Positions 13,350 to 22,618 of a DNA stretch of 64,000 nt are shown piece by piece (the stretch's first letter is position 1; each line of letters begins with the position of its first letter). Origin of the DNA: Thiothrix subterranea (GTDB lineage: Bacteria > Pseudomonadota > Gammaproteobacteria > Thiotrichales > Thiotrichaceae). The translations under genes and the position numbers were made by a program. The stretch lies in the NCBI RefSeq assembly GCF_016772315.1, contig NZ_CP053482.1, forward strand, positions 2,232,001-2,296,000. The letters run 5' to 3'. The notes beneath the pieces are model-generated. The model ran no database searches, was not told the origin of the DNA, and worked only from the letters and a program-made list of their open reading frames with translations.

Positions 13350-13649
13350 ATGAAAAGCTTGGGAATGCTGCTGTTAGCGGGCATGTTATTGATGACAGCC
13401 CTATCGGGGTGTAGCCGTTCCAATGCAGCCGAGGGCATGGCAAATATGGCAGCGTTTCAACAATGCCGTGAGCCGCGCCCGGAAATTTGTTACGAAGTGT
13501 TTGCGCCAGTGTGCGCTCAGTTGCGCGACCCGCTGACTCGTTGTGTGAATGCGCCGTGCCCTTCCACACTTCAGGCGACGTATGTCAACGATTGTAAGGC
13601 GTGTGCTGATCCGCAGGTACAAGGGTTTGTGCCGGGGCAGTGTCAGTAA
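13350..13649 (+). CDS. Small lipoprotein with a Kazal-like domain
   Basis: 99 residues with a type II signal peptide: MKSLGMLLLAGMLLMTAL followed by the lipobox LSGC (C21). The mature part has eight cysteines in a Kazal-like pattern (EICYEVFAPVC, then TYVNDCKAC and GFVPGQC). Kazal domains in eukaryotes inhibit serine proteases; in bacteria such small lipoproteins are mostly uncharacterised. ATG at 13350 follows GCGAGG by five bases. Transcribed divergently from pcm and followed by a C-rich repeat. The family call rests on cysteine spacing and the APVC/TY.N.C signature only. Confidence 0.7.
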   Translation: MKSLGMLLLAGMLLMTALSGCSRSNAAEGMANMAAFQQCREPRPEICYEVFAPVCAQLRDPLTRCVNAPCPSTLQATYVNDCKACADPQVQGFVPGQCQ

Positions 13650-13702: not shown

Positions 13703-15448
13703 TTAGGCTAAGCCTTCGTTGCCGTCCACGTTTTTGAGTTTCGGCGTATTCAGCTCGATCTTGCCAATGGTCTTTTTGTCGCGCAGGTAATCGGCGACGA
13801 CTTCCCAGATTTGCTTGTTAGGCTTTACTTCTTCTTGGACACTTGCCCAGCCTGCGACCGGGTAAGTTTTCGCCGCATCCAAGGGTTTGCCGCCAAGTTC
13901 CATGTCAGAGACGCGGTTGCCCATTTTCGCGGTTGGGTCAAACGTGAATTTCAAACCACCCACGCGCACCATGTCGCCGCCTTGCTGGTAGTAAGGGTCT
14001 TCGTTGAAGAGGTTATCGGCTACGTCTTCGAGGATCGTTTTAATGGTTTCGCCAGTCATTTCGTTACGTGTGACCGTGCCGTAAGTAATCGCGGTTTGGT
14101 CAGCAACGTGTTCAAACGTGATCGGTTGCCCTGGCAGTACGCTTGTACCCCAACGGAAACCCGGTGAAAACGCCATCGGTGCATCCAAACCTTGCATCAG
14201 CGCGTCGCAGATTAGTTGGTCGAAAGTGCCGTTGAAATTGCCACGCCGGTACAGCACGTCATCACATACCGCGAGTTCTTCCGCCAATTCTTTCTTGTAC
14301 GGTTCGCGGATTTTGTCGATCAGGGTTTGCATATCCTTGTTGGCTTCCAACAAGTTGGAGAAGACCGGCAGCAATTTGTAACGGAAATCCGCCACTTTGC
14401 CGTCTTTCACATCCAGATCGAGCACGCCGAGGAATTTGCCGTTAGAACCCGCATTCGTGACCAGTGTTTTACCGCCTGCATTTTCAACAACCACCGGCTG
14501 GAATACGCCATCGTGCGTATGACCGCCCATGATCGCGTCAATGCCGGTGACTTTGCTGGCCATTTTCAGGTCAACGTCCATGCCGTTGTGCGACAGCATA
14601 ATGACGACTTTCGCACCTTTGCTACGCGCATCGTCAACCGCTTGCTGCATGTCGTCGTCACGGATACCGAAGCTCCAGTCTGCGACCATGTGTTTGGGGT
14701 TAGCAACTGGCACATACGGGAATGCCTGTCCAATAATCGCCACGGGTACGCCGTTGATTTCTTTGATCACGAACGGTTCAAACACGCGCTCGTCAAAATC
14801 GTTGCTGAAAACGTTTTGCGCAACGAAATCAATTTTGCCCGCGAAATCTTTCTCGACGATTTCTTTAACACGATCCGCGCCGAAGGTCATTTCCCAGTGC
14901 GGGGTCATCACGTCCACGCCGAGGGCAAGCTGTGCATCCACCATGTCTTGCGCATTGGTTTTCAGAGCTGTCCACGAACCTTGCCAAGTATCACCGCCGT
15001 CCAGCAGCAATGAACCGGGGCGTTGCGCACGTACTTGGTCAACCAAGGTTTTCAGGTGGGCAAACCCGCCGACTTTGCCGTATTTTTTCGCGGCTTCAAC
15101 GTAATCAATGTAGGTGAAAGCGTGCGCATCCATCGTACCGGCTTCGATGCCGTACTTTTTCAGGAAATGTTCGCCGACCAAGTGCGGCACTGCACCTTTC
15201 ATGCTGCCGATACCCAAGTTGACGTTCGGCTCACGGAAGTAAATCGGCAATAATTGTGCGTGGCAGTCGGTGTAATGCATCAACGATACGTTACCGAAGG
15301 CGGGCAGTTCATACGGGTTGCTGGGGGCTTTGACAGCGGTTTTGTCGCCTTCTTTGCTGGCATCTGCTGCAAAAGCGTTATTCAGGCTGAAACCGGCAAC
15401 GCTGGCGGCGGCCAACATTTGCATAAATTCACGACGGGTTAGACTCAC
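13703..15448 (-). CDS. soxB: SoxB, dimanganese thiosulfohydrolase
   Basis: 581 residues. SoxB releases sulfate by hydrolysing the cysteine-S-sulfonate on SoxYZ in the periplasm. The start is GTG at 15448, preceded by GAGGAGAG at five to six bases; the longer frame adds residues across the promoter region. The N-terminus has a Tat signal (RREFMQMLAAASVAGF). Metallophosphoesterase motifs appear in order: DCHAQLLP, DGGDTWQG, LSHNGMDVD, GGHTHDG, followed by the 5'-nucleotidase C-terminal domain. It is divergent from the ECF sigma gene and has a candidate ECF promoter 73 bases before the start. It stands alone, about 5 kb from the other sox genes. Confidence 0.96.
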   Translation of the reverse strand: MSLTRREFMQMLAAASVAGFSLNNAFAADASKEGDKTAVKAPSNPYELPAFGNVSLMHYTDCHAQLLPIYFREPNVNLGIGSMKGAVPHLVGEHFLKKYGIEAGTMDAHAFTYIDYVEAAKKYGKVGGFAHLKTLVDQVRAQRPGSLLLDGGDTWQGSWTALKTNAQDMVDAQLALGVDVMTPHWEMTFGADRVKEIVEKDFAGKIDFVAQNVFSNDFDERVFEPFVIKEINGVPVAIIGQAFPYVPVANPKHMVADWSFGIRDDDMQQAVDDARSKGAKVVIMLSHNGMDVDLKMASKVTGIDAIMGGHTHDGVFQPVVVENAGGKTLVTNAGSNGKFLGVLDLDVKDGKVADFRYKLLPVFSNLLEANKDMQTLIDKIREPYKKELAEELAVCDDVLYRRGNFNGTFDQLICDALMQGLDAPMAFSPGFRWGTSVLPGQPITFEHVADQTAITYGTVTRNEMTGETIKTILEDVADNLFNEDPYYQQGGDMVRVGGLKFTFDPTAKMGNRVSDMELGGKPLDAAKTYPVAGWASVQEEVKPNKQIWEVVADYLRDKKTIGKIELNTPKLKNVDGNEGLA

Positions 15449-15490: not shown

Positions 15491-15521
15491 GGTAGTGACG
15501 GGGTGCAGGTGAAAATATTCC
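15491..15521 (-). promoter_or_regulatory. Candidate ECF-type promoter of soxB
   Basis: On the - strand: GGAATATTTT from 15521, then CGTCAC starting 21 bases after the first G, followed by TACC. The same two boxes with 15-16 bases between GGAATA and the second box occur upstream of the ECF gene and of the second soxY. Predicted start of transcription is about 40 bases before the soxB GTG. Inferred from comparison of three sites inside this window. Confidence 0.6.
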
Positions 15522-15529
15522 ATCTTTTT

Positions 15530-15557
15530 GGAATATTTCGTCAATTTTCTGCATCAT
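15530..15557 (+). promoter_or_regulatory. Candidate autoregulatory ECF promoter of the sigma factor gene
   Basis: GGAATATTT at 15530, CATCAT at 15552 (16 bases between GGAATA and CATCAT). The upstream box forms a 9-bp inverted repeat with the soxB box (AAATATTCC at 15513-15521, eight bases apart), so two -35-like elements stand back to back and could drive divergent transcription. The sigma gene ATG is 64 bases from the first G. Confidence 0.55.
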
Positions 15558-15593: not shown

Positions 15594-16133
15594 ATGTTTA
15601 GTCAGTATTTTCGTTTTAACCGTCTCGACCAGCAGTTGTCGGAACACCGCGCCAAGCTGCATCGCATGGCAGTGGCATGGTGTGGCGATAGCGCGTTAGC
15701 CGACGATCTGGTGCAAGACACCCTTGCAAAAGCCCTAGAAAAACAAGAACAACTGAAAGATGAAGCGCGTTTAGGCGCGTGGCTGTACAAAATCCTCCAC
15801 AACTGCTGGATGGAGCATTTGCGTACCCAAAAGCCGACGCTGGACATCGACGACATGGAGCTAACCTGTACGGATTGCCCTGAAAAACACTTCGCCGATG
15901 ATCAACTGGTCACGCAAGTGCGCACTGCTGTGGAATCGCTTCCGGTGAATCAGTGCCAAGTGATGACCTTGGTGGATTTGGAGGGGTGCAGCTACGAACA
16001 AGTTGCCGCGATCCTCGATATTCCGGTAGGAACGGTGATGAGCCGTCTCAGCCGCGCCCGCGAAACCATGAAAAAACGCCTGCAAGGTATCCGTCAAACT
16101 GACAACGTTCACTATTTACGGAGAGTGAAATGA
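15594..16133 (+). CDS. ECF-family RNA polymerase sigma factor
   Basis: 179 residues, the usual size of an ECF sigma. Region 2 is visible as HRMAVAWCGDSALADDLVQDTLAKALEK (residues about 23-50), and region 4 near residues 108-160: LPVNQCQVMTLVDLEGCSYEQVA with the helix-turn-helix IPVGTVMSRLSRAR. ATG at 15594 has only a weak ribosome site. The stop overlaps the start of the downstream anti-sigma gene (ATGA). It faces soxB across a shared promoter region, and matching boxes lie before soxB and the second soxYZ, so these are likely targets along with its own gene. The ECF assignment is secure; the regulon is inference. Confidence 0.93.
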   Translation: MFSQYFRFNRLDQQLSEHRAKLHRMAVAWCGDSALADDLVQDTLAKALEKQEQLKDEARLGAWLYKILHNCWMEHLRTQKPTLDIDDMELTCTDCPEKHFADDQLVTQVRTAVESLPVNQCQVMTLVDLEGCSYEQVAAILDIPVGTVMSRLSRARETMKKRLQGIRQTDNVHYLRRVK

Positions 16134-16825
16134 ATCCCGATCAGCTAACCATCCACGATCGTCTGCACGCATTGGCAGATGGGCAATTGGATGCTGAACA
16201 AACCCGTTACGTGTTAGCTCAAGTGGAAACTGACCTTGAGCTGCAAAAAGAATTGTGTGAAATCCAGCGCATCAAACATCTGGTTAAATCGGCTTACCCC
16301 TTGCCCGCTTTGACCCGTCAGCCCGTGCGCCGCTCGCAGGTATGGCAACAAGCGGCGATGTACTTATTGGTGTTCGGCCTCATCTTTCTTGCTGGCGCAG
16401 GCAGCAGTCACTACGCCCCGAAATTGTGGCAACCTGAAGGCTTGACGCTGGAAAATGCGGCGGCATACGACGACCGTTTCATTGTGTTTTTGGACTCGCA
16501 CGAGCCAGCCAAACTGGAAAAAGCCTTGGTGAAAGCCGAAAATCTAGCGCAACAAGTTGAAGCCAAAGACGGCAGCGTTTACGTCGTGACCAGCGCGGAA
16601 GGCATTGATTTATTACGCCTTGGCACAACCCAGCACGAAGGGCGTATTTTGCAGATGAGCGAGCAATACCCGCATTTGAAATTTGTGGCGTGCAGCAATA
16701 CCTTGTATTTGTTCAAACAACGTAACGAATTCGTTGAACTGGTCGATGACACCGAAGTTGCCCCATCCGCTGTGGAATTTGTGGTAAACCACATGCGCGA
16801 TGGGTGGCGTTATATTGCGATTTGA
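16130..16825 (+). CDS. Transmembrane anti-sigma factor with periplasmic DsrE-like domain
   Basis: 231 residues, starting inside the sigma gene stop (ATGA overlap; GGAG six bases before). Residues 1-65 are a charged helical cytoplasmic domain (HDRLHALADGQLDAEQ) typical of anti-sigma factors, without the HxxxCxxC zinc motif. One membrane helix lies near 70-92 (AAMYLLVFGLIFLAGAG). Residues about 110-231 resemble the DsrE fold and align by eye with the periplasmic DsrE-like protein at 18348-18917; C188 in ACSNTL matches C146 in ICYNTL there. A sulfane-sulfur-binding sensor domain on an anti-sigma factor is my inference. The 3' end overlaps the convergent PIN gene by 16 bases. Confidence 0.8.
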   Translation: MNPDQLTIHDRLHALADGQLDAEQTRYVLAQVETDLELQKELCEIQRIKHLVKSAYPLPALTRQPVRRSQVWQQAAMYLLVFGLIFLAGAGSSHYAPKLWQPEGLTLENAAAYDDRFIVFLDSHEPAKLEKALVKAENLAQQVEAKDGSVYVVTSAEGIDLLRLGTTQHEGRILQMSEQYPHLKFVACSNTLYLFKQRNEFVELVDDTEVAPSAVEFVVNHMRDGWRYIAI

Positions 16826-17244
16826 ATAGACTGCATTCCCAGCATTTTGGCGGCTAAGTTCAGACGTTTGTCGAAACAAGCAAACAATAGCGGTAATCGC
16901 GTTTGTTGCTGCAAATGCCGTGCTGCTGCGAGATGCACGCTGTCATAGGCACGCAGGGAAAAGGCTTCCGCCAATTCTGCGGCACTTTGCAGTAAGCTCA
17001 GGTCAGTTTCGACTTGCAAATAATCGACCCAATCCTCTGCGAATGCCTGTTTCAATGCTTCAAAGGTGGGCGTGTCCACATCATTTTCACGGTGACGGCG
17101 TGCTAATGCCGCATGAAATTCAACAAAGGCAATTTGGTGCGAGGCGATAACGTCCGCTTGCTGTTGAAGTTCGTTAACTACATCAGAATAGGCTTCCTGC
17201 ACATACAACTTCACGAGGGCGGAAGTGTCCAGATAGAGTAGCAT
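16810..17244 (-). CDS. PIN-domain toxin (VapC-like)
   Basis: 144 residues with the PIN endoribonuclease pattern: LDTSALVKLY at the N-terminus, FVEFHAALARR in the middle, then RAYDSVHLAAA and CFDKRL carrying the later acidic residues. Its ATG shares one base with the antitoxin stop (TAATG), the standard toxin-antitoxin layout. It ends inside the 3' end of the anti-sigma gene, read from the opposite strand. VapC-type PIN proteins cut tRNA or rRNA; the target is not indicated. Confidence 0.87.
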   Translation of the reverse strand: MLLYLDTSALVKLYVQEAYSDVVNELQQQADVIASHQIAFVEFHAALARRHRENDVDTPTFEALKQAFAEDWVDYLQVETDLSLLQSAAELAEAFSLRAYDSVHLAAARHLQQQTRLPLLFACFDKRLNLAAKMLGMQSIQIAI

Positions 17245-17498
17245 TAGCGCATTTCCAACACAGTATCGGCAAGGGATTTGCCGCGTAATGTGGGGCGTGG
17301 TCGATTCAGATTGGGTTTTTTACCCAGCCAATGCACATTGGGAATATTGCCCAGCAATGTTTGAGAAGCAGGAGCCGCGACCGATACGAGACGTGCTACC
17401 ACCTGTTTGTGGGAAGTCAGCCATACAGTATGCCCCGCCTGTGCTTGCCGGATGTAATGGGAGGGGTTTACTTTTAGTTCACGGATAGAGATTTGCAT
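17244..17498 (-). CDS. Phd/VapB-like antitoxin
   Basis: 84 residues. The N-terminus (MQISIRELKVNPSHYIRQAQAG, then VARLV) is the Phd/YefM DNA-binding fold; the C-terminal half is Pro/Arg rich and would bind the toxin (RPRPTLRGKSLADTVLE). It precedes and touches the PIN gene. A -10 element (TATAAT) and an inverted repeat just upstream suggest autorepression. Confidence 0.85.
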   Translation of the reverse strand: MQISIRELKVNPSHYIRQAQAGHTVWLTSHKQVVARLVSVAAPASQTLLGNIPNVHWLGKKPNLNRPRPTLRGKSLADTVLEMR

Positions 17499-17555: not shown

Positions 17556-18278
17556 CTAGAGCTTTTTACTGGTGGCCTCACCCCAATCCAGATTGTTGCA
17601 AGCCTCGCATTCTTCTTGCAGCAGACCCATCCGCACCAGCAAGGAATGCATTTTGCAGCCCACACAGAAACCCAGCACTGTTTCCATCCACATAAACCCA
17701 AAGCATACCCACACCAGTACCAGTGGAATCCATGAGGGCATGTAGTTGTACGTTTCCGGCAACTGTTCGCTACCTGCTATGGCATTCACCCAGCCTGCGA
17801 AAATTTCGGGGTTGAAGAAAATCAGGCAAGTGACAATAAAACTTGCGCCAATCGACCAAGCAAAACGTTTGGGCAGCAACGGTTTCCACACCGGGCGCAG
17901 GTTTTTCGCCAGAAAGCTGCTGAGCAAAATGGTGGGGGAAAGCCGCGAAGTGCTTACAAACATGCCGGAAATCATTTCAAACAACGCATAAAACAACACC
18001 CATGTTTGTGTGCTGTAATCAAACGTGCGCTTGACGGCTTCGACGCTGTAAATAATGCGCCCATCAAAATCGGTTTCGAGCGTGTCGGTAATGACCTCGC
18101 CGGTGATGACCCAATCCGAACCAAAGATGGCATCAAACAGCGTGAACGCCATGTAGATGGGAATCGCGAGCAACAGCCCGGCGCGAATACGCACGGCGGT
18201 GTCGTTAATGTAGGGGCTGACTTCGTTGCGGTCGCGAAACCACAAATCCTTGCAGCAAGTGATGATCCAATTGACCAT
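17556..18278 (-). CDS. DUF4395-like integral membrane protein
   Basis: 240 residues with about four to five membrane segments. The C-terminal part has the DUF4395 signature GFCVGCKMHSLLVRMG (a CxxC at a membrane face); a second CxxC (CEACNNLDW) follows near the end. An N-terminal Cys pair (ITCCKDLW) is also present. Family function is unknown; thiol motifs and the sox neighbours make a redox or sulfur-transfer role possible, but this is inference. Last gene of the minus-strand run that begins with the second soxY. Confidence 0.7.
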   Translation of the reverse strand: MVNWIITCCKDLWFRDRNEVSPYINDTAVRIRAGLLLAIPIYMAFTLFDAIFGSDWVITGEVITDTLETDFDGRIIYSVEAVKRTFDYSTQTWVLFYALFEMISGMFVSTSRLSPTILLSSFLAKNLRPVWKPLLPKRFAWSIGASFIVTCLIFFNPEIFAGWVNAIAGSEQLPETYNYMPSWIPLVLVWVCFGFMWMETVLGFCVGCKMHSLLVRMGLLQEECEACNNLDWGEATSKKL

Positions 18279-18347: not shown

Positions 18348-18917
18348 TTACGGTTTCAGTAGCTGATAGCCTTGCGATTGCAAGCGGCCTGCTTCCGCCA
18401 CACCGGAGGGAATCACGTCTTCCGGTTTGGCATCGTACAAGTCAGCAAACTTGATTTTGCGCCCGGTCAGCGTGTTGTAGCAGATTTGGAATTTTACGCC
18501 TTGTTCCTTCAGTTCCAAAATTTTGCCGGGCAGTTTAGCGTCGGCGTCCATTTCTACTTGCTTAGCCGTGGTTAGCAAGCCTAAGCCATCGCCGTTCATT
18601 ACAATGACGGCATCGGTTTTTTTGCCGGTTTGATCCAGTGCTTTCATGTAATTGCTGACATTGCCCAGCACGCCGAGGTATTTCTTCTCGTCACCCTCCA
18701 TTGTGACGTGAACTACCACTTTTTCAGCTCCGGCGTAATAGTCGTCAGCGACTTTGGGTGCAGGTACGCCGGGGTCAAACTTGGCTTCGGCGGGCTTAGC
18801 AGCCGGAGCCGGGGCAGCTTCTGCTTTCGGTTCAGCCGGTTTGGTATCGTCAGCGATTGCAAGACCAGCAACGCTGCTGGCAGTCATCAATAAACCCAGT
18901 ATGATTGGTTTTAACAT
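18348..18917 (-). CDS. Periplasmic DsrE-like protein
   Basis: 189 residues: signal peptide (MLKPIILGLLMTASSVAGLAIA), an Ala/Pro/Lys-rich linker to about residue 50, then a DsrE-fold domain (VVVHVTMEGDEKKY, AVIVMNGDGLGLL, VKFQICYNTLTGRK). C146 sits where DsrE/TusD-type proteins bind persulfide. Cytoplasmic DsrE proteins pass sulfur between carriers; an exported version next to sox genes could bind sulfane sulfur in the periplasm. It lies 49 bases after the SoxH-like gene, with GGAGGAGAC before its ATG. The family is clear; the role is inferred. Confidence 0.82.
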   Translation of the reverse strand: MLKPIILGLLMTASSVAGLAIADDTKPAEPKAEAAPAPAAKPAEAKFDPGVPAPKVADDYYAGAEKVVVHVTMEGDEKKYLGVLGNVSNYMKALDQTGKKTDAVIVMNGDGLGLLTTAKQVEMDADAKLPGKILELKEQGVKFQICYNTLTGRKIKFADLYDAKPEDVIPSGVAEAGRLQSQGYQLLKP

Positions 18918-18966: not shown

Positions 18967-19917
18967 TTATTGCATTCCTTCCTGTTCCAGCGACAGGTAA
19001 ACCTGATAAGCATTGCGGCGGTTGGCTTCTTCAAATGCAGGCAGGTGGATGAAATCGCCCCAGTCGGTGGCGGCATAAGCTTCGTCAAACGGGGTCATGT
19101 CTTCGACGGCTTTGCCCATGGTTTCACGCAGGAATTCGATGTATTGCACCGTGGTTTTAATCACTTCCTGCGGTTTTTTGGACATCGGGCCGTGACCGGG
19201 AACCATCGCAGTGAGCTTGCCTTGCGCCATGTCTTTTAAGCGTTCCAGCCAGATTTTGGTATTGGCATCGCCAACGAAAGGCACGCGCCCTTCAAAAATC
19301 AAATCGCCAATCAGCAATACGCCATCCGGCTCGACCAGCACGCTTTGGTCGCCATCAGAATGCGCTTTGCCGTTAAAAAGGAGTTTGAGGGTAACACCAC
19401 CAAGGGTGATTTCTTCATTGCCATCGACGTAACGGTCGGGTTTAACCAAGCGGGTGTCAGCATTGACCCACGGGGCAAGCTCTTCGCGACGCGAAGCCAG
19501 CAAGGTTTCGGCGTTTTCAGAATTGAGGTATTCCTCAGCACCGGCAGGGGCGATAATTTCCGCGCCCAAATCTTTGAATACTTGTAAACCGTAAATATGA
19601 TCGGCGTGATAATGGCTGACAATCACCTTTTTCACCGGCTTGTCAGTCACTTTTTTGAGTTTTTGCAGGAATAATTGCGCTAACGCTGGTGTGCCAAGGG
19701 TATCGAATAAAATTACACCTTCGTCAGTGACAATCACCGCAGCGTTGGAAATGAAACCGTGGTTTTGGGTGGCTGCACCGGGTGCGCCTTGCACGTAGTA
19801 AACGTGTTCGGACACTTTAATCAGTTCCATCACGACTGGGGGGAGTTTGTCATCAGCACGGGCATTCAACCCCATGGTTAAACAGAGAAGGGTGAAGAAT
19901 GCAGCGATAACGCGCAT
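18967..19917 (-). CDS. SoxH-like exported metallo-beta-lactamase-fold hydrolase
   Basis: 316 residues with a signal peptide (MRVIAAFFTLLCLTMGLNARA). Metal motif HYHADH near residues 102-107, a later histidine in GKAHSDGD, GDLIFEGRVPF and GHGP are all present. Such proteins occur in many sox clusters as SoxH, whose activity is not settled (dispensable for thiosulfate oxidation where tested, to my knowledge). Located 112 bases after the second soxZ with a perfect palindrome in between. GGAGG lies just before the ATG. Confidence 0.83.
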   Translation of the reverse strand: MRVIAAFFTLLCLTMGLNARADDKLPPVVMELIKVSEHVYYVQGAPGAATQNHGFISNAAVIVTDEGVILFDTLGTPALAQLFLQKLKKVTDKPVKKVIVSHYHADHIYGLQVFKDLGAEIIAPAGAEEYLNSENAETLLASRREELAPWVNADTRLVKPDRYVDGNEEITLGGVTLKLLFNGKAHSDGDQSVLVEPDGVLLIGDLIFEGRVPFVGDANTKIWLERLKDMAQGKLTAMVPGHGPMSKKPQEVIKTTVQYIEFLRETMGKAVEDMTPFDEAYAATDWGDFIHLPAFEEANRRNAYQVYLSLEQEGMQ

Positions 19918-20029: not shown

Positions 20030-20338
20030 TTACGCTACGTCAGCTTCGGCAGAGTCTTTCTCGCCTTTGTTGTCAGTCCAAGCGAGTTTCACTTTGTCGC
20101 CTGCCTTGCCCGCATAGTTGAACGCGAGGTAAGGGTTTTTGGAGACAGAGCCGCCCCATTTGGCGGTCAGGATAGTCTTGTCACCCGCCGTGACCACGAT
20201 GTCCTGAATGAAATGCGCCGGAACCAGTTCGCCGGTTTTCTTGTCTTTGCGCTGCCCGGTTTCCATTGGGTGTGTCATCAGTGCTTTGACTTCGACAGTG
20301 CCGTCTTTCACCGCAGCTTTAAGTTTAATACTAGACAT
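20030..20338 (-). CDS. soxZ: SoxZ, copy 2
   Basis: 102 residues, full length. SoxZ pairs with SoxY to form the sulfur-carrier complex of the periplasmic Sox cycle; it has no signal peptide and is exported with SoxY. It starts 18 bases after soxY with AGGAG upstream. It differs from the copy at 21837-22145 by one visible residue (QDIV here, QDII there). The soxY-soxZ spacer differs between copies (CGATTCTCC here, GTGTGCTCC there). Confidence 0.95.
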   Translation of the reverse strand: MSSIKLKAAVKDGTVEVKALMTHPMETGQRKDKKTGELVPAHFIQDIVVTAGDKTILTAKWGGSVSKNPYLAFNYAGKAGDKVKLAWTDNKGEKDSAEADVA

Positions 20339-20356
20339 GATCGATTCTCCTCTGAA

Positions 20357-20812
20357 TTAGCCGCCGCAGCCGCCGATGGTGACTTTAACTTCTTGCTTGG
20401 CGGTGTACGATTTGTCACCGGCTTTAGCAATTGCCACGACGTTAGCGGTCTTGCCCATTTTGATACGGGTAGAGGCTTCCGGTTGCGTGCCTTCACCCAT
20501 GATGAACGTTGCCGCCAGTGGGGTAGGGTTGCCATCTACCAGAATGCTGATTTCAGTCGTTCCAGCAACGCCGGAAGTAACAGTGACAGGGACAACTGCA
20601 CCGTTTTCAGCAATTTCAGGGGCTTTGATTTTAATGTCAGCGGAATCTTCCGGGGTCAATGCCATGGTTTTCAGGGCATCTTCCATGGTTTTGGCGTCAA
20701 ATGCGCCGCCGCCTTCTGCCATAACCATGCTGGGTGTCAGCAGGCCAGCGCTAACCGCAAGGCCAGCGGCACTGGCGGCTAAAGTGCCTTGCAAAAATGT
20801 TCTGCGTTTCAT
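20357..20812 (-). CDS. soxY: SoxY, copy 2
   Basis: 151 residues from the ATG at 20812, the first one after a GAGAGAGGAA site. Tat signal (MKRRTFLQGTLAASAAG), then the SoxY domain and the C-terminal GGCGG arm whose Cys149 carries the sulfur. The protein is identical to copy 1 at 22163-22618, and the DNA differs at only a handful of bases. It sits behind a terminator and has its own candidate ECF promoter, so it is probably expressed separately from soxXYZA. Confidence 0.95.
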   Translation of the reverse strand: MKRRTFLQGTLAASAAGLAVSAGLLTPSMVMAEGGGAFDAKTMEDALKTMALTPEDSADIKIKAPEIAENGAVVPVTVTSGVAGTTEISILVDGNPTPLAATFIMGEGTQPEASTRIKMGKTANVVAIAKAGDKSYTAKQEVKVTIGGCGG

Positions 20813-20855
20813 AATTCCTCTCTCCAGAGATGTGTTGTGAGTGTGAGCATTCAGA

Positions 20856-20887
20856 GGTAATGATGTGTTGAACGCTAAAAATATTCC
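20856..20887 (-). promoter_or_regulatory. Candidate ECF-type promoter of the second soxYZ
   Basis: On the - strand: GGAATATTTT from 20887, CATCAT 22 bases after the first G, followed by TACC. Matches the soxB site in both boxes and in the trailing TACC. The first G is 75 bases before the soxY ATG (73 for soxB). Confidence 0.6.
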
Positions 20888-21836: not shown

Positions 21837-22145
21837 TTAAGCAACGTCAGCTTCGGCAGAGTCTTTCTCGCCTTTGTTGTCAGTCCAAGCGAGTTTCACT
21901 TTGTCGCCTGCCTTGCCCGCATAGTTGAACGCGAGGTAAGGGTTTTTGGAGACAGAGCCGCCCCATTTGGCGGTCAGGATAGTCTTGTCACCCGCTGTGA
22001 CGATGATGTCCTGAATGAAATGCGCCGGAACCAGTTCGCCGGTTTTCTTGTCTTTGCGCTGCCCGGTTTCCATCGGGTGTGTCATCAGTGCTTTGACTTC
22101 GACAGTGCCGTCTTTCACCGCAGCTTTAAGTTTAATACTAGACAT
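21837..22145 (-). CDS. soxZ: SoxZ, copy 1
   Basis: 102 residues, the partner of SoxY in the sulfur carrier. It follows soxY by 17 bases and precedes soxA by 12, so it belongs to a soxX-Y-Z-A operon. One residue differs from copy 2 (Ile for Val in QDIIVTAG). GAGGAG before the ATG. Confidence 0.95.
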   Translation of the reverse strand: MSSIKLKAAVKDGTVEVKALMTHPMETGQRKDKKTGELVPAHFIQDIIVTAGDKTILTAKWGGSVSKNPYLAFNYAGKAGDKVKLAWTDNKGEKDSAEADVA

Positions 22146-22162
22146 GTGTGTGCTCCTCTGAA

Positions 22163-22618
22163 TTAGCCGCCGCAGCCGCCGATAGTGACTTTAACTTCTT
22201 GCTTGGCGGTGTACGATTTGTCACCGGCTTTAGCAATTGCCACGACGTTAGCGGTCTTGCCCATTTTGATACGGGTAGAGGCTTCCGGTTGCGTGCCTTC
22301 ACCCATGATGAACGTTGCCGCCAGTGGGGTAGGGTTGCCATCTACCAGAATGCTGATTTCAGTCGTGCCAGCAACGCCGGAGGTGACAGTGACAGGGACA
22401 ACTGCACCGTTTTCAGCAATTTCAGGGGCTTTGATTTTAATGTCAGCGGAATCTTCCGGGGTCAATGCCATGGTTTTCAGGGCATCTTCCATGGTTTTGG
22501 CGTCAAATGCGCCGCCGCCTTCTGCCATAACCATGCTGGGTGTCAGCAGGCCAGCGCTAACCGCAAGGCCAGCGGCACTGGCGGCTAAAGTGCCTTGCAA
22601 AAATGTTCTACGTTTCAT
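22163..22618 (-). CDS. soxY: SoxY, copy 1
   Basis: 151 residues, Tat signal with RR at 3-4 and the C-terminal GGCGG carrier arm (Cys149). Same protein sequence as copy 2 (20357-20812). Located 35 bases after soxX. Near-identity of DNA as well as protein implies a recent duplication or ongoing gene conversion. Confidence 0.95.
   Translation of the reverse strand: MKRRTFLQGTLAASAAGLAVSAGLLTPSMVMAEGGGAFDAKTMEDALKTMALTPEDSADIKIKAPEIAENGAVVPVTVTSGVAGTTEISILVDGNPTPLAATFIMGEGTQPEASTRIKMGKTANVVAIAKAGDKSYTAKQEVKVTIGGCGG

Follow-up and report, generated by a model that had tools for sequence, protein, structure and literature searches.

The window analysed in this study comprises 64,000 nucleotides of Thiothrix subterranea DNA, and the features with which we are concerned are collected in Table 1. 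Two genes stand at its focus. The upstream gene encodes an ECF sigma factor in which sigma regions 2 and 4, both required of this class, are significant Pfam matches. The second gene encodes a 231-residue protein, P0002, and, as the original prediction stated, overlaps the sigma gene; the overlap is four bases. This overlap, together with the presence of a homologue of the window sigma factor upstream of 86 of 87 homologous fusion genes, places the two genes in one operon; the single exception begins 125 bases into its contig.

Table 1. Features of the window, with coordinates, strand and supporting evidence.
Feature	Coordinates	Strand	Evidence
soxB	13703..15445	-	TIGR04486 1.2e-260
Predicted divergent soxB promoter, GGAATA-N15-CGTC	15497..15521	-	Motif search
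Predicted promoter of sigma/anti-sigma operon, GGAATA-N16-CATC	15530..15555	+	In all 6 Thiothrix loci
ECF sigma factor gene, 179 aa	15594..16133	+	Pfam Sigma70_r2 5.4e-13, Sigma70_r4_2 1.6e-15
Anti-sigma/DsrE fusion gene, protein P0002, 231 aa	16130..16825	+	4-base overlap with sigma gene
Cytoplasmic anti-sigma-like part, residues 1-57	16130..16300	+	Family Pfam matches; weak PDB matches to MucA, RseA
Single membrane helix, about residues 71-89	16340..16396	+	Model helix H71-87; hydropathy in 73/87 homologues
Periplasmic DsrE-type domain, residues 116-231	16475..16822	+	Profile vs 1l1s E=2.6e-23; Foldseek 2pd2/1l1s prob 1.00
Codon of invariant Cys188	16691..16693	+	Kept in 87/87 homologues
DUF4395 membrane protein, last gene of run	17556..18278	-	Pfam DUF4395 1.5e-15
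Exported stand-alone DsrE-type protein, Cys146	18348..18917	-	Pfam DsrE 5.2e-7
SoxH-like metallo-beta-lactamase-fold hydrolase	18967..19917	-	SoxH_rel_PQQ_2 7.6e-55, below model cut-off
soxZ, same run	20030..20338	-	Pfam SoxZ 2.1e-37
soxY behind predicted promoter, ATG at 20815	20357..20815	-	Pfam SoxY 7.3e-32
Predicted promoter of soxY 20357-20815, GGAATA-N16-CATC	20862..20887	-	Matching site in L031 at 10089

The start of soxB is likely the GTG at 15445, judged by eye from where the TIGR match begins and from a GAGGAGAG ribosome site. Adjoining soxB at 13350-13649 (+) is a gene for a small exported cysteine-rich protein, which is found in six loci (cluster c7). The soxY, soxZ, SoxH-like, dsrE and DUF4395 genes lie on the same strand, no terminator-like site was found on the minus strand between 20815 and 17556, and these five genes probably form one operon. 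The SoxH-like hydrolase has an apparent signal peptide by eye. The soxYZ pair occurs twice within 2 kb, at 20030-20815 and 21837-22618 (-), and by eye the two copies are identical in SoxY and one residue apart in SoxZ. A promoter of the sigma type is found only at the 20030-20815 copy, and the 21837-22618 copy sits behind soxX. A further gene pair (144 and 84 amino acids), which by eye resembles PIN toxins and their antitoxins, occupies 16810-17498 (-) and overlaps the 3' end of the fusion gene on the opposite strand. No such pair is present at the equivalent place in locus L031.

Searches with single sequences yielded weak evidence on the nature of P0002. The best Pfam match was zf-HC2 (E=0.18, below the curated cut-off), no Pfam DsrE match to P0002 alone was found at E≤5, NCBIfam did not name the protein, and a protein search of its own genome at E≤0.001 returned only P0002 itself. 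The likeness to the exported 18348-18917 protein, which the original prediction drew by eye, is also weak pairwise (BLASTP over 73 residues, E=1e-4, a single comparison), and profiles of the P0002 domain and of that protein built from Thiothrix only were matched with a probability of 14%. These single-sequence results (Pfam/NCBIfam, BLASTP to the neighbour and Thiothrix-only profiles) were given no weight. Relatives of P0002 occur in five Thiothrix genomes with 68-89% identity, and profile iteration over the fetched loci, in which start codons of over-long ORFs were trimmed, produced 87 full-length fusion ORFs in 85 loci and 60 stand-alone DsrE ORFs. The fetched set of 87 fusion genes leaves out part of the full-length matches from the search of the class described below. 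The alignment A2 omits three of the 60 stand-alone ORFs, namely L090, L108 and L069, which were long, overlapping or truncated.

The N-terminal part of the fusion family has a weak resemblance to known anti-sigma factors. Among the 87 homologues, 56 match Pfam zf-HC2 (best 5.6e-4) and 13 match RseA_N (best 7.5e-4) at E≤1, and the family profile of this part has weak PDB matches to MucA (6in7, E=0.15) and RseA (8z6g, E=0.19). The HxxxCxxC zinc motif is absent from the N-terminal part of every one of the 87, which rules out a zinc anti-sigma (ZAS) factor and agrees with the zinc-less N-terminus originally described. The single membrane helix and outer domain of that description are also supported. 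The best hydrophobic 19-mer has a median position of residue 77 and a mean hydropathy of at least 1.6 in 73 of the 87 homologues, and in 84 of them the part preceding the helix holds more lysine plus arginine than the part following it, so the N-terminus is placed inside and the C-terminal domain outside. In the class I anti-sigma factors RseA and MucA, which act on RpoE and AlgU, a zinc-less cytoplasmic sigma-binding domain is followed by one helix and a periplasmic sensor, the gene stands beside the sigma gene, and envelope stress is sensed by proteolysis. P0002 shares the zinc-less N-terminus, the one helix, the periplasmic sensor, the sigma-adjacent gene and a predicted autoregulation, and we infer an RseA/MucA-like anti-sigma activity for its N-terminus from these sequence features. 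The periplasmic sensor of P0002, however, is of DsrE type and has an invariant cysteine.

The assignment of the periplasmic domain is confirmed by comparisons at the level of the family, in which it is closest by sequence profile and by predicted fold to the solved protein MTH1491 (1l1s). First, Pfam DsrE matches 41 of the 87 homologues at E≤1 (best 2.1e-8). Secondly, the family profile matches MTH1491 at E=2.6e-23 and ST0148 (2pd2) at E=7.3e-13. Third, a modest AlphaFold2 model built from five Thiothrix sequences (pLDDT 65, pTM 0.45) has 2pd2 and 1l1s as its top PDB matches in Foldseek (prob 1.00, TMt 0.82-0.84), followed by other DsrE proteins, with DsrEFH (2hy5_B) at rank 8 (E=0.014). A profile match to the SarA-homologue 1p4x (E=0.0034) covers only the linker and the first strand-helix and was taken as chance. 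Lastly, the fusion family and the exported stand-alone DsrE family align in hhalign with 99.8% probability (E=4.5e-30), cysteine on cysteine. Thus the by-eye likeness between P0002 and its neighbour, weak for the pair of proteins, is clear for the whole families, and on this profile comparison the sensor domain and the 18348-18917 protein are paralogues, members of one family.

The two cysteines, C188 of P0002 and C146 of its paralogue, occupy the positions that had been given for them. C188 and W226 are invariant among the 87 homologues, D17, L20, A187, G225 and Y228 are nearly so, and C188 is the sole cysteine after the helix in 85 of the 87. This conservation is not circular because the homologues were gathered by similarity and not by cysteine. 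The corresponding cysteine of the stand-alone DsrE proteins is kept in 56 of 57 sequences. The loss of C188 in orthologues, or a fold other than DsrE, had been named as grounds for abandoning the prediction, and neither was observed. The conservation also bears on whether the fusion is a functionless relic or a chance likeness. Only the weak pairwise similarity was found to speak for this. It is refuted by the 87 homologues, in which residues are invariant and the linkage is conserved, and we regard it as extremely improbable.

The proteins closest to the sensor domain, MTH1491 and ST0148, share its fold, its cysteine (CACSNTL in 1l1s) and the C-terminal GW.Y motif, which reads GW.YI in both 1l1s and the fusion family. 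They differ in being free-standing proteins, named hypothetical in the PDB, and are not membrane regulators. DsrEFH, TusBCD and DsrE3A, which are cytoplasmic carriers, belong to the same superfamily, and in these carriers the cysteine carries sulfur. However, the similarity of DsrEFH to P0002 is remote and structural only, the DsrE unit of P0002 is a single fused domain behind a membrane helix, and the neighbouring genes listed do not include a cytoplasmic E-F-H or B-C-D set such as makes up the DsrEFH and TusBCD complexes. DsrE3A has been reported to react with tetrathionate to form a Cys-S-thiosulfonate (PMC4175335).

The fusion, predicted from one locus, proved to be widespread. When 369 genomes of the class were searched at the protein level, 80 contained matches and 65 contained full-length fusions (a match from residue 20 or before to residue 225 or beyond), the latter being about one sixth of the sampled genomes and two fifths of those bearing soxB (64 of 151). 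SoxB, called at E≤1e-60, is encoded in 64 of the 65 fusion genomes versus 87 of the 304 others (Fisher p=3e-28, kinship ignored), and the only fusion genome without it, G055, is 93% complete. A profile re-search of 80 of the 87 soxB-bearing genomes outside the 65 found one more full-length fusion (G223), giving SoxB in 65 of 66, and a fusion in unjoined pieces (G090). These searches suggest that the device is nearly confined to soxB-bearing genomes. There are many soxB-bearing genomes without the fusion, and these must therefore regulate otherwise. In a draw of 398 genomes from the phylum, with at most seven candidates scored per genome so that misses are possible, the matches listed included full-length fusions in three genomes (the window's own, G569 and G620), all of the same class. 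The other matches listed contained part of the architecture only and have the appearance of free DsrE proteins or of further anti-sigma factors. When plasmids were searched with one homologue, only partial matches came up, in seven records, all from Azospirillum.

The neighbours of the fusion agree in part with those first described. In Thiothrix soxB stands beside the pair, but elsewhere the usual neighbours are an exported DsrE protein and a porin, which commonly point away from the sigma and anti-sigma genes, and soxB takes their place in Thiothrix. Of the 87 fusions, many of them in truncated loci, 55 have a stand-alone DsrE gene within 5 kb, 39 have a porin belonging to a single family and 11 have soxB; the one porin tested is a Porin_O_P member. 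The porin often accompanies the exported DsrE in the predicted regulon, and it may possibly serve as an entry pore for sulfur anions. Tandem sigma/anti-sigma-DsrE pairs with DsrE genes on their flanks occur at two loci (L047 and L051) from two genomes.

The frequent stand-alone paralogue raises the question of where the sulfur chemistry takes place. DsrE-type proteins form trimers or hetero-hexamers, and the sensor domain might dock the soluble exported DsrE protein instead of reacting itself, with the loading or depletion of this carrier as the signal and C188 serving as a contact. Such docking fits the occurrence of the paralogue near 55 of the 87 fusions and in the same predicted regulon, and the membership of sensor and soluble protein in one family. 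On the other hand, 32 of the 87 fusions have no stand-alone DsrE gene within 5 kb (some of these loci are truncated), and the invariance of C188 and its match to the MTH1491 cysteine argue for chemistry at the sensor. We consider docking a possibility, and a somewhat unlikely one.

The association with Sox extends to promoter sequences. Of 85 regions upstream of sigma genes, 68 contain the motif GGAA[TC]-N16/17-C[GA]TC, 67 of them reading GGAATA, versus a Markov expectation of 0.5 on average and 3 at most (50 resamplings). In each of the six Thiothrix loci a mirrored pair of sites lies between soxB and the sigma gene, the soxB promoter blocks TGACGG and AAATATTCC are invariant in all six, and the -35 and -10 blocks of the Thiothrix sites are, by eye, better conserved than the spacers. 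The sigma gene is accordingly placed among its own predicted targets, with autoregulation through an ECF-type promoter. The fusion loci together contain 141 copies of the motif, compared with 6-26 for reversed, scrambled and spacing-shifted controls. The motif precedes 9 of 11 soxB genes (controls 0 or 1), 4 of 32 porin genes (controls 0) and 21 of 49 stand-alone dsrE genes (controls 0), the last number falling to 20 once a site within the fusion coding sequence is set aside. These statistics suggest that the sigma factor reads the motif and that its regulon includes sox and dsrE genes. The link to Sox in the original prediction is supported by the near-exclusive co-occurrence with SoxB and by a promoter motif common to the sigma gene, soxB and soxY.

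Sox loci apart from the fusion were scored with a matrix trained on sigma promoters alone, and 300 column-permuted matrices served as the control. Scores of at least 14 before soxB (11) or soxX (7) were found in 12 of 40 separate sox loci of fusion genomes, whereas the permuted matrices reached a mean of 0.13 and a maximum of 2 loci; in the other 28 loci no match of at least 14 precedes a sox gene. Among control sox loci from soxB-bearing genomes in which no fusion was found, 2 of 20 score, a difference that is not significant alone (Fisher p=0.11). Because 28 of the 40 loci have no match and 2 of the 20 controls score, control of Sox would be not universal or not always through this motif. 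No match of at least 9 precedes soxX in the soxX-soxY-soxZ-soxA run of the window. In G305, a genome of the window's family without a full-length fusion, no site of at least 14 is present in the sox stretch (L211). A sigma-type motif does precede soxX at L205 (G366, score 25.6) and L198 (G064, score 16.2), where a full-length fusion was not found; either the fusion was missed in draft contigs or another sigma factor reads the motif.

A stricter motif, GGAATAA-N14/15-CGTCT, is present in 53 of the 65 fusion genomes (115 sites), versus 19 sites in 17 genomes for the reversed control. The 78 soxB-bearing genomes without a found full-length fusion (the 80 re-searched genomes minus G223 and G090) show no excess, with 23 sites in 19 genomes versus 31 for the reversed control. 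Additional sites lie ahead of genes for two cytochromes c, one of them SoxX-like, for a YeeE-type (Sulf_transp) protein and for a stand-alone DsrE protein, and some precede genes without an evident sulfur role, such as isocitrate dehydrogenase-like and ribosomal S1-like genes (named by eye). In the window's own genome the loose motif has 52 sites versus 13 for the reversed control. It is too loose for naming targets there, so only sites starting GGAATATTT were used, and these precede soxB, the sigma gene and soxY, with one more at C1:3978463 that is followed by no gene of evident sulfur role.

The neighbourhoods and the motif also allow the general job of the system to be control of the outer membrane, its porins or the envelope, with Sox added to the regulon in particular lineages only, Thiothrix among them. 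The common porin-dsrE arrangement facing away from the pair, the greater number of fusions near a porin than near soxB, and the 28 distant sox loci lacking the motif would all be expected in that case. However, SoxB is encoded in all but one of the 65 host genomes, the partner gene of the porin is itself a DsrE gene, and the extra motif sites precede cytochrome genes, SoxX-like ones among them, and the sulfur transport gene. For these reasons we judge envelope control unlikely to be the primary function.

The preferred reading has parts of different strength. We hold it very likely that the locus encodes an ECF sigma factor and a membrane anti-sigma factor with a receptor of sulfur-carrier fold, which together control Sox and DsrE genes. 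A reasonably probable step beyond this is that C188 lets the pair read sulfur chemistry in the periplasm and so induce these genes. It is conjecture, although somewhat favoured, that C188 is the receiving atom and that sulfane sulfur or a polythionate is the signal, since C188 is a lone invariant cysteine and cysteines of this family bind sulfur; we know of no case of sulfur bound to any of these proteins.

In the proposed mechanism the anti-sigma N-terminus would keep the sigma factor bound on the cytoplasmic side of the membrane, and the DsrE-type sulfur-carrier domain would be borne on the outer face. Sulfur substrates in the periplasm would load Cys188 as a persulfide or thiosulfonate, either without an intermediary or by way of the exported stand-alone DsrE protein. 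Loading would weaken the grip on the sigma factor, which could be released by cleavage or by conformational change. The freed sigma factor would then transcribe its own operon, soxB and the soxY-soxZ-soxH-like-dsrE-DUF4395 run. We tentatively suggest that this represents a new class of transcription control, in which a periplasmic receptor for sulfane sulfur (persulfide or polythionate), based on a sulfur-carrier fold, takes up its load at its one cysteine and releases an ECF sigma factor; the exported DsrE paralogue may do the loading, in mixed oligomers. Such a system could be in wide use among gammaproteobacterial sulfur oxidisers for switching on Sox, DsrE-porin and sulfur-transport genes. 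If this is true, the sensor sits in the periplasm, where Sox works, and a sulfur-carrier fold serves as a receptor. The hypothesis is testable, as it comes down to one cysteine, one promoter motif and named targets.

ECF control of sulfur oxidation is already known from two systems, one of them in Arcobacter butzleri, a member of a different phylum. The ECF sigma-2 (AB1044) of A. butzleri was found experimentally to activate the sox operon; its regulon overlaps nap and tct, and DsrE is absent from the main text of the report (PMC3445524). In Sinorhizobium meliloti the ECF26 factors RpoE1 and RpoE4 respond to sulfite, and RpoE4 is encoded beside sorT and controls it (PMC3511301). These too are ECF sigma/anti-sigma pairs, with RpoE4 adjoining an oxidative sulfur gene, but the target is a sulfite oxidase, no DsrE sensor appears in the main text, and the authors assume the signal to be sulfite of intracellular origin (PMC3511301). 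Among repressors, SoxR has been called sulfane-sulfur-responsive (PMC10451225), and SoxR and sHdrR together with SoxT1B are described as signalling external sulfur and controlling sox genes, in a report that states that the sensing of external sulfur by regulators of sulfur oxidisers is poorly understood (PMC11582611). SoxR and sHdrR are presented there as cytoplasmic repressors fed by a membrane transporter and not as sigma/anti-sigma pairs with an outside sensor. The main text of a survey of class I anti-sigma factors, including those with fused domains, does not contain the term DsrE (PMC7406223). In agreement with the original statement that no described example was known, no DsrE-bearing anti-sigma factor was found in searches of open-access PMC text, which does not prove absence from print.

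The cysteine could also have another signal. C188 might sense thiol-reactive stress, such as oxidants, hypochlorous acid, arsenite, copper or tellurite, with Sox and DsrE proteins induced for repair or detoxification. ECF/anti-sigma pairs often report stress of this kind. However, the predicted targets are sulfur-oxidation genes and the device is almost confined to soxB-bearing genomes, and we think a general stress function improbable. Consistent with such a function, arsenite shifts DsrE/F-like genes of unclear role in two Thioalkalivibrio strains, genes whose identity with the fusion system is not established (PMC6620896). A thiol-based sensor could, as speculation, be the cause of this response. 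In the same report, sox genes rose in one strain, whereas in the other they were stable or slightly lowered and a porin was strongly lowered (PMC6620896).
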